From Schaalia sp. HMT-172 (GTDB lineage: Bacteria > Actinomycetota > Actinomycetes > Actinomycetales > Actinomycetaceae): a stretch of 64,000 bases of DNA. Under the pieces are notes generated by a model. The model had not been told where the DNA came from. It searched no databases and saw only the letters and a list, made by a program, of their open reading frames with translations. Numbering within the stretch: position 1 is the stretch's first letter; every line of letters starts with the position of its first letter. The position numbers and the translations under genes were made by a program. Below, one piece after another: positions 3,909-53,990 of the stretch. The stretch lies in assembly GCF_030644365.1 (NCBI RefSeq), contig NZ_CP130058.1, positions 2,046,001-2,110,000 on the forward strand. Reading direction: 5' to 3'.

Positions 3909-3994
3909 ATCCGGATAGGTAACCAACATCCGGATAGGTAACGAAGATCTGGATAGCTTAATAACCTATCCGGATGCACATAACCTATCCGGAT
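3909..3994. repeat. Inverting 19-bp site array, copy A
   Basis: Five copies of the self-palindromic core ATCCGGAT (third copy ATCTGGAT) begin at 3909, 3928, 3947, 3968 and 3987. The steps are 19, 19, 21 and 19 bp. The first three read ATCCGGATAGGTAAC on the plus strand, the last two read ACCTATCCGGAT, so the array flips at an AGCTTAAT centre. The same geometry recurs at 47345-47430 and 53862-53966. The pattern suggests protein-binding sites on one helical face; no binding protein is known to me. Confidence 0.85.
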
Positions 3995-4143: not shown

Positions 4144-4248
4144 TCGCATGCAATTCGATTGGCTGAAAATTCAATAAAACCTCAAAACGTTGTAATTCCA
4201 ACGCTGCGAATTCAAAGTTTGAAATAGTTGCGGGGGAATTGCATGCGA
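4144..4248. repeat. 105-bp palindrome-ended element, copy A
   Basis: The element is bounded by TCGCATGCAATTC and its exact complement GAATTGCATGCGA, and both arms extend outward by two more paired bases. Inside is AAAACGTTGTAATTCCAACG, which can form its own small hairpin, and TTCAAAGTTTGAA. It is flanked by AATTGGTGG on the right. Two more copies of exactly the same length occur at 46652-46756 and 53664-53768. It has no coding capacity. Confidence 0.85.
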
Positions 4249-7900: not shown

Positions 7901-8086
7901 TCAGTCGACCTCCTCAGCGGTCACCAGGTGACGCACGGTGCGAACGGCGCCCAGAACGGCGTCCGTCTGCTCACGCACGACACTCTGGCCGATCTTGCGC
8001 AGCCCGAGGGTGCGCAGCGTGTCCTTCATGTTCTGCTTCGCGTGAGCAGAGGACTTGACCTGCGTGATCTTGATGTTCTTCGCCAT
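7901..8086 (-). CDS. rpmD: 50S ribosomal protein L30
   Basis: 61 residues from ATG at 8086 ([35 protein letters not shown]), the short bacterial L30. A GTG directly before the ATG is a possible alternative start. The ATG overlaps the rpsE stop by one base (TGATG), indicating coupled translation. Confidence 0.96.
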
Positions 8087-46430: not shown

Positions 46431-46576
46431 GCACGTGGGCCCCTCGCTGTGCACGTTAACCCGACATCTCGCACGTTAACCCGATATTCTGCGCGTGGGC
46501 GGCGCTGCTTAGGCTCACATTATCGGGCCCGCGTGCAGATGAGAGGGCCCAGGCTCACATTATCGGGCCCACGTGC
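46431..46576. repeat. 20-bp site array with inverted half
   Basis: GCACGTGGGCCC, GCACGTTAACCCGA, GCACGTTAACCCGATA and GCGCGTGGGC start at 46431, 46451, 46471 and 46491, exactly 20 bp apart. Two inverted units (GGCTCACATTATCGGGCCC[G/A]CGTGC) end at 46536 and 46576, 40 bp apart. The direct-then-inverted layout parallels the 19-bp arrays but the site is different. Confidence 0.8.
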
Positions 46577-46651: not shown

Positions 46652-46756
46652 TCGCATGCAATTCGATTGACTGAACTTTGAACATAACGCGAAAACGTTG
46701 CAATTCCAACGACACAGATTTGTGCTGCACACGAGTCGCGAGGGAATTGCATGCGA
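46652..46756. repeat. 105-bp palindrome-ended element, copy B
   Basis: Ends TCGCATGCAATTC / GAATTGCATGCGA (13 bp perfect), internal GAAAACGTTGCAATTCCAAC, right flank AATTGGGGG. Exactly 105 bp like copies A and C, although the inner right half differs. Confidence 0.85.
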
Positions 46757-53663: not shown

Positions 53664-53768
53664 TCGCACGTAATTTAACCCGGTCACTTTTGAGCACCAC
53701 GAGAAAACGTTGGAATACCAACAACCTGGTTTCAAAGTTTGAATGAAGCGTAGGGGAATTACGTGCGA
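53664..53768. repeat. 105-bp palindrome-ended element, copy C
   Basis: Arms TCGCACGTAATT / AATTACGTGCGA. Compared with copies A and B (TCGCATGCAATT), two positions changed in the left arm and both partners changed in the right arm, so pairing is kept. Internal GAAAACGTTGGAATACCAAC and TTTCAAAGTTTGAA match copy A; right flank CATTGGTGG. Exactly 105 bp. Confidence 0.87.
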
Positions 53769-53861
53769 CATTGGTGGGAACTACTGAATCGAGCAACGAG
53801 CCGCACCACAGGCACACCGCATGAACAACTGCCTGGCAGTCCCGCCCGGATAGCGGCGCGT

Positions 53862-53966
53862 ATCCGGATAGGTAGAGAACATCCGGATAGGTAACGAAGA
53901 TCCGGATAGCTTAATTTCCTATCCAGATGCGCACAACCTATCCAGATGCGCACAACCTATCCGGAT
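53862..53966. repeat. Inverting 19-bp site array, copy C
   Basis: Six sites at 53862, 53881, 53900, 53921, 53940 and 53959: steps 19, 19, 21, 19, 19. Three ATCCGGATAGG sites face three CCTATCC[A/G]GAT sites around AGCTTAATTT. This is the most complete of the three arrays. Confidence 0.87.
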
Positions 53967-53990
53967 GCTACTCGCGCCTACGCCACCTTC

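Follow-up and report, generated by a model that had tools for sequence, protein, structure and literature searches.

Palindrome-ended elements of near-fixed length in a Schaalia genome and the DUF559 nuclease gene that they recurrently flank

Towards the right end of a 64,000 bp window of a 2.53 Mb Schaalia-type genome (the window being C1:2046001-2110000 of a single 2,533,704-base contig) lies a 105 bp palindrome-ended segment, element C (53664-53768), whose arms differ on both sides from those of two other copies in the window, raising the question as to whether such elements are maintained as RNA hairpins or as sites on DNA, and by what. Direct reading confirms the original prediction that all three copies are exactly 105 bp long and carry the arms then assigned to them. 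Elements A (4144-4248) and B (46652-46756) have arms TCGCATGCAATT and AATTGCATGCGA, located at 4144-4155 and 4237-4248 in A, which was also found with a covariance model, and at 46652-46663 and 46745-46756 in B, whose inner right half has diverged. Element C, also recovered by a BLAST search of the genome, is in a second arm state, with TCGCACGTAATT on the left (53664-53675) pairing perfectly with AATTACGTGCGA on the right (53757-53768). Its interior contains a conserved central motif, AAAACGTTGGAATACCAAC (53704-53722), with an inverted GTTGG/CCAAC in this copy, and a second conserved dyad, TTCAAAGTTTGAA (53731-53743); the outer right flank (53769-53784) is also conserved, with a family consensus of about CATTGNTGGGNAACCA. 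All of these features are given on the forward strand, and the core AAAACGTTGNAATNCCAAC and right-side ATTGG that were said to be common to A, B and C are found in all three.

The three copies belong to a large family. A BLAST search of the same genome gives 37 matches, and the covariance-model search that had been proposed as a check, run with a model built on 32 elements, gives 149, from which 52 weaker reverse-strand matches of the same places were dropped to leave at least 97 distinct elements with arm covariation and a near-fixed length; this number is a floor because 150 of 325 candidates were scored. There are 173 matches of the 12-mer TCGCAYGYAATT in the genome (89 forward and 84 reverse) and none of its backwards-read pattern, so that the elements are abundant far beyond chance; 88 of the 89 forward matches lie inside the listed elements, the remaining one being at 1769912. 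Most elements are 105 bp long (68 of 97), with 15 of 106 bp, 11 of 107 bp and three of 104 bp, and among at least 152 copies in named relatives the corresponding numbers are 108, 30, 12 and one, with a single copy of 103 bp, in a search that permitted lengths of 101-114 bp and all 16 combinations at the switching arm positions. Because the elements of these relatives were found by arm pattern their perfect arms are no evidence in themselves, but the 97 elements described here, and a sample from relatives G028 and G034, were found by covariance model and not by arm pattern. A search of plasmids with one query and of viral contigs with the exact-arm pattern found nothing.

The arms occur chiefly in two matched states, TCGCATGCAATT/AATTGCATGCGA in 46 of the 97 elements and TCGCACGTAATT/AATTACGTGCGA in 29, while the other 22 are off by one or two arm bases, one being a full hybrid of the states and three having a partly mixed left arm. 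The two matched states also account for 150 of the relatives' copies (at least 152), with CGT/GCG in one and CGC/GCG, a third matched state, in another. In a gap-free alignment of 82 sequences of 105 bp (68 from this genome and 14 from two relatives), the pairs at positions 6-100 and 8-98 are each changed on both sides in 36 of 81 distinct rows, and compensation elsewhere in the arms is confined to a single row at pair 7-99. Near-identical neighbours can differ in both arms together (1920623 versus 1921111, and 2460496 versus 2465524). At nine orthologous loci (159193, 223160, 806288, 891577, 924205, 1837689, 1966417, 2395583 and 2499636) a relative has both arms in the other state while the inside of its element is still closest, among the 97, to its positional partner; at three of these (891577, 1837689 and 2499636) the arm in our genome is one base off. 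Column covariation among 116 sequences lies in the arms and otherwise chiefly in subfamily blocks of neighbouring columns. The constant length and compensated arms noted in the window are therefore real genome-wide, but the arm covariation is that of two linked states and not free covariation. We also note that flanks containing GGGCCC go with a subfamily of elements (1518177, 1551703, 1582389, 1791588 and 2337172).

A candidate for the factor that recognises these arms lies among the elements themselves. A gene encoding a DUF559 protein (C1:147603-148550) is located between the elements at 147454 and 148605, and a homologue is likewise between two elements in ORNL0103; in G004 the homologous protein is 46% identical and its gene lies between two elements with other arms. 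A. bouchesdurhonensis (86%) lacks the element on the far side. Our genome has six DUF559 matches (E up to 1), of which two are between elements, as was noticed after the fact, and four are not. Among the 35 genomes of the one genus searched, 13 contain the gene. The flanking was seen first in our genome, ORNL0103 and G004 and then predicted for other homologues, with G020, G012, G006, G013, G015 and G033 tested after the prediction. Using inverted repeats of at least 11 bp spanning 95-140 bp and no more than 450 bp away, palindrome-ended repeats are present on both sides of eight of 14 homologue loci (four of our own clade, G004, G020, G012 and G006), on one side of five (G010, G015, G033 and the second homologues of G020 and G015) and on neither side of one (G013); G022, which has a cut flank and is among 15 full homologue loci, and the weak match L358 were left out of this count. 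Random 820-bp stretches pass on both sides in 0.025% (G003), 0% (G005) and 1.7% (window) of cases and on one side in 1-10.5%, although this control is lenient because random stretches are not gene flanks. No DUF559 relative is present within 1.5 kb of any of 15 other dispersed loci examined.

The second DUF559 gene between elements (C1:125704-126297, between 125287 and 126910) has a 99% identical copy in A. bouchesdurhonensis (L232), and there is a single element there in G011 and HPA0247. A third gene context of note is C1:494533-495359, where a HepT-like and XRE-nucleotidyltransferase pair resembling a toxin-antitoxin system lies between elements 494253 and 495525. In the window, a weak DUF559 match at 7931-8068 (E 0.079, under the cut-off) is 3.7 kb from element A.

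The presence of the gene can be compared with that of the elements across the genus. All six genomes with at least 56 matches of our own type carry the gene, at 76-100% identity, and the complete relatives G028 (26 copies) and G034 (25 copies), in which the copies are decayed, do not; own-type elements are also present without the gene in G025, and in G021, which is 70% complete, 26 elements were found but no match to the gene. Twenty of the 51 elements of G028 and G034, taken from among the better scoring, have 25 arm deviations, compared with 26 in the 97 elements of our genome (p 1.6e-7). Decay of this kind would be expected if upkeep were relaxed once the factor had been lost, although shared ancestry may also account for it. 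Dispersed elements are present in 11 of 13 genomes with the gene and four of 22 without it (Fisher p 2.3e-4); this value overstates the association, since the lineages are related and it was beside the gene that several of the arm types were discovered.

Analogous elements are found in other congeners, where the arms are different and the length is fixed by species. In G004 there are at least 20, their ends including ACCCGCAAAAATAGACACAGTCGT, and five of 20 keep a TTCCAACGAT centre like our own. At least four of the 20 occupy the same intergenic place as an element in our genome (one of the four with only one flanking gene matched) and yet have quite different arms, and we therefore suspect a trans-acting factor whose specificity changes between species. 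New arm types are found on both sides of the gene in G020 (CCGCTAAAACGCACACAGTTTC), G012 (AACGCACACAGTTTC) and G006 (TACGCACACAAGG), and beside the gene in G033 one palindrome is clear and another imperfect. A general pattern of these gene-side arms, permitting 96-121 bp, recovers dispersed copies in G006 (34), G012 (24), G015 (14), G020 (12) and G021 (26), with none in the 30 other genomes and none in the control. Of the G006 matches 33 are 102 bp long, the other one overlapping one of them, and 20 of the 24 in G012 are 103 bp. Candidate arms in G005 looked like coding repeats and were set aside. Iterons of GTGCACATWCCCCTAGATTTAA, repeated every 31 bp and inverted about a GCAGGTC-containing centre, occur in the first 200 kb of G003 (L304:17400-17730, L305:16640-16890 and L308:17580-17890), and GCAGGTC is also central in part of the G004 elements; because G003 has no DUF559 gene match, we regard these iterons as related in anatomy only.

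The protein itself has the features of a Vsr-fold nuclease of the DUF559/MTES_1575 group, with a domain match and conserved acidic residues. It scores 28 bits against Pfam DUF559, above the cut-off of 20.6, and 27.9 bits against MTES_1575, under the cut-off of 38.2; aligned homologues are 284-316 residues long, and GEVD, ExDG and RD are invariant among 14 of them, together with other residues. Its profile matches PDB 3hrl, a solved endonuclease-like protein (E 2.6e-6), and weakly 3r3p (E 0.29), a mobile-intron protein that we take to be the Vsr-like I-Bth0305I. The nuclease domain is thus only weakly similar to that of 3r3p, and the DUF559 gene differs in lying outside any intron or intein and in being tied to dispersed palindromic elements. 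An NCBIfam search gave nothing useful, and a predicted structure of the ORNL0103 protein from a two-row alignment (mean pLDDT 38) was set aside. MTES_1575 has been described as a Vsr-fold REase domain (PMC3710099). Pfam lists the function of DUF559 as unknown, and the titles and abstract openings of publications naming it make no link to dispersed palindromes.

The flanking of one nuclease gene in several species suggests that its protein recognises the element ends, and the best reading of these findings is a pairing like that of REPINs and RAYTs with an unrelated enzyme. In REPIN/RAYT systems elements with inverted ends and a variable middle are present in many intergenic copies, and the partner gene is flanked by copies; the elements described here share each of these features, but the partner flanked on both sides at eight of 14 loci is DUF559 and not a Y1 gene, and the family differs in its near-fixed length and in having ends TCGCAYGYAATT with neither a GTAG nor a CGTC tag in its arms. 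Moreover, the Y1 transposase (PF01797) was found in none of the 35 genus genomes, compared with five of 14 control genomes; the family is for this reason not a REPIN/RAYT member, and a RAYT partner was rejected. In arrangement, though, it is comparable to REPIN/RAYT (TnpA-REP) systems (PMC3116915, PMC2817692, PMC8266576).

We propose, as the probable explanation, that a trans-acting, Vsr-fold DUF559/MTES_1575 nuclease recognises the arms of this family of about 100 members, which are matched, held at a fixed distance and separated by a conserved centre. The nuclease would read and bind both arms and would nick or cut there; repair or replication would then copy the element to new intergenic sites, and existing copies would be kept alike when one is overwritten by repair from another, with maintenance limited to those in which both arms are right. 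Such a process would operate at the level of DNA and not RNA. The fork polarity of the elements, described below, also counts in favour of this proposal. Against the pairing, G013 has the gene with no adjoining repeat, five loci pass on one side only, G021, G025, G028 and G034 have elements but no match to the gene, and the insertion history given below is not that of an element that moves freely. A broader proposal, of which we are less sure, is that this could be a second, independently evolved system of enzyme and palindrome, in which DUF559 nucleases spread and maintain species-specific elements of fixed length whose arms change along with enzyme specificity. If DUF559 proteins do act on such elements, this would provide a role for one branch of them, and the origin of REPIN-like partnerships would not be limited to a single enzyme fold; two arm states at about 100 loci and in several species are in addition a natural test of how the specificities of protein and site change together.

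The genomic placement of the elements also bears on an alternative, which is that they are chromosomal protein-binding sites with a function in the cell, such as chromosome organisation or regulation at gene ends, selected at each place, and that the nuclease gene is one neighbour among many or a secondary user. None of the 97 elements overlaps a called gene by more than 20 bases, and for the 92 with both neighbours called the genes converge in 38, are in one or other tandem setting in 36 and 13, and diverge in five, although these contexts rest on a crude custom gene caller. With dnaA at 2,512,110, 70 of the 97 are oriented against the replication fork; in two relatives the corresponding numbers are 19 of 26 and 19 of 25, and in each of the three genomes elements are enriched near the origin. 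The ratio of against to with the fork is 27:3 beside leading-strand genes and 10:9 beside lagging-strand genes, and fork direction therefore seems to matter apart from gene direction. IS608-type elements are known to be polarised towards the lagging-strand template (PMC6006769). We note separately that a stretch of about 450 kb around the expected terminus (C1:924343-1375283) contains none of the 97 listed elements.

A freely moving element would not be expected to stay at orthologous sites as these do. Where the flanking genes are conserved, 80 of 89 comparisons find an element in the relative as well (in tiles chosen for holding an element somewhere), and eight of 20 elements in G028 and G034 are between the same two genes as an element in our genome. 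This persistence, extending to the shared G004 places, the near-fixed length and the enrichment near the origin would suit binding sites selected where they stand, but copy numbers differ greatly, there are places without an element, these searches find none in about half of the 35 congeners, and the flanking of one gene family is not something that such sites predict; we consider this reading doubtful, though with a real chance of being right. Records labelled Sanguibacter keddieii 250_SKED and Xylanimonas cellulosilytica 352_XCEL (L149, L159 and others; NZ_JVOJ, JVKM) are syntenic with our genome at about 80-97% flank identity, and are probably mislabelled.

The elements could instead be an ordinary family of non-autonomous MITEs of a classical transposon, now immobile, with the nuclease gene a passenger trapped between copies in a composite or solo-LTR-like unit. 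In G020 and G006 the copies on either side of the gene are near-identical and in direct orientation, tandem copies are present in our genome, and the elements are dispersed, with insides in some cases exchanged between sites while the flanks are unchanged; for example, at the 147454 site the element of A. bouchesdurhonensis is more like our element of the 149865 site (score 0.91) than its positional partner (0.63). The empty sites proposed as a check of mobility are found in so far as places without an element exist, but among the insertions compared with relatives none was clean and bordered by a short target duplication. At C1:145700-145960 an element lies in an insert of nearly 200 bp that is bordered by a direct repeat about 35 bp long, and in two relatives there is no element at this place and a single, diverged copy of the repeat; another insertion, of 257 bp, has no flanking direct repeat. 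One apparent empty site (L200/L238) in fact holds an element, and among the matches listed flank-based scans were swamped by other dispersed repeats. Besides this inconsistent target duplication, no transposon bearing these ends was seen in our genome (as the location of the forward arm 12-mers indicates), its covariance-model copies have nearly perfect arms although many are at orthologous sites, and the arms of the elements flanking this one gene family differ among several lineages, all of which makes the transposon explanation unlikely.

Known families offer partial likenesses. ERIC, Correia (CREE), RUP and other intergenic palindromic repeats or MITEs are short, dispersed, intergenic imperfect palindromes, as are these elements in general form, but the family is set apart by its two switchable perfect arm states, its species-specific arms and the copy-flanked nuclease gene, and no transposon with such ends was seen in the genome. 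Integron attC sites also have inverted ends and a variable interior and lie near gene 3' ends; they are characterised by RYYYAAC/GTTRRRY, to which these arms do not conform, and the elements are scattered and not in one array. The view that no described element has these ends is uncontradicted, with none among the publications listed, those on Actinomyces/Schaalia repeats included, and no Rfam family matching the 231 bases around element C even at E 10.

The original prediction had allowed either an RNA hairpin or a DNA or protein site, and it is the protein site that fits. A structured RNA transcribed from the downstream gene, such as a 3' UTR hairpin, a terminator or an RNase III substrate, would find some favour in the strong stem formed by the arms, and in the downstream gene being oriented towards the element in 74 of 92 contexts with few divergent. 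Among imperfect arm pairs there are 11 G·T and 15 A·C, whereas RNA would be expected to give a wobble (G·U) bias that neither strand has. Conservation extends to the inner dyads, and inner hairpins are above a shuffled control, but one slid control (0.146 at +3) surpasses their covariation score of 0.086, several independently covarying helices were not seen, and RNA folding of the interior, evaluated in 49 of the 97 elements, is near that of shuffled sequences (mean z -0.76 for the bottom strand and -0.16 for the top). With two linked arm states, no G·U bias, a weakly folding interior, no Rfam match and a fork effect separate from gene direction, the RNA reading is very improbable and was rejected.

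Other repeats are located close to the window copies. A second dispersed family, of ATCCGGATAGGT iterons with a 19-bp period, is present at 3909-3956 and 53862-53968, near elements A and C, and also beside 495964 and in a relative; at 53862-53968 the ATCCGGATAGGT iterons face inverted CCTATCCAGAT iterons. To the left of element B, tandem AGGCTCACATTATCGGGCCC units occupy positions 46511-46571.
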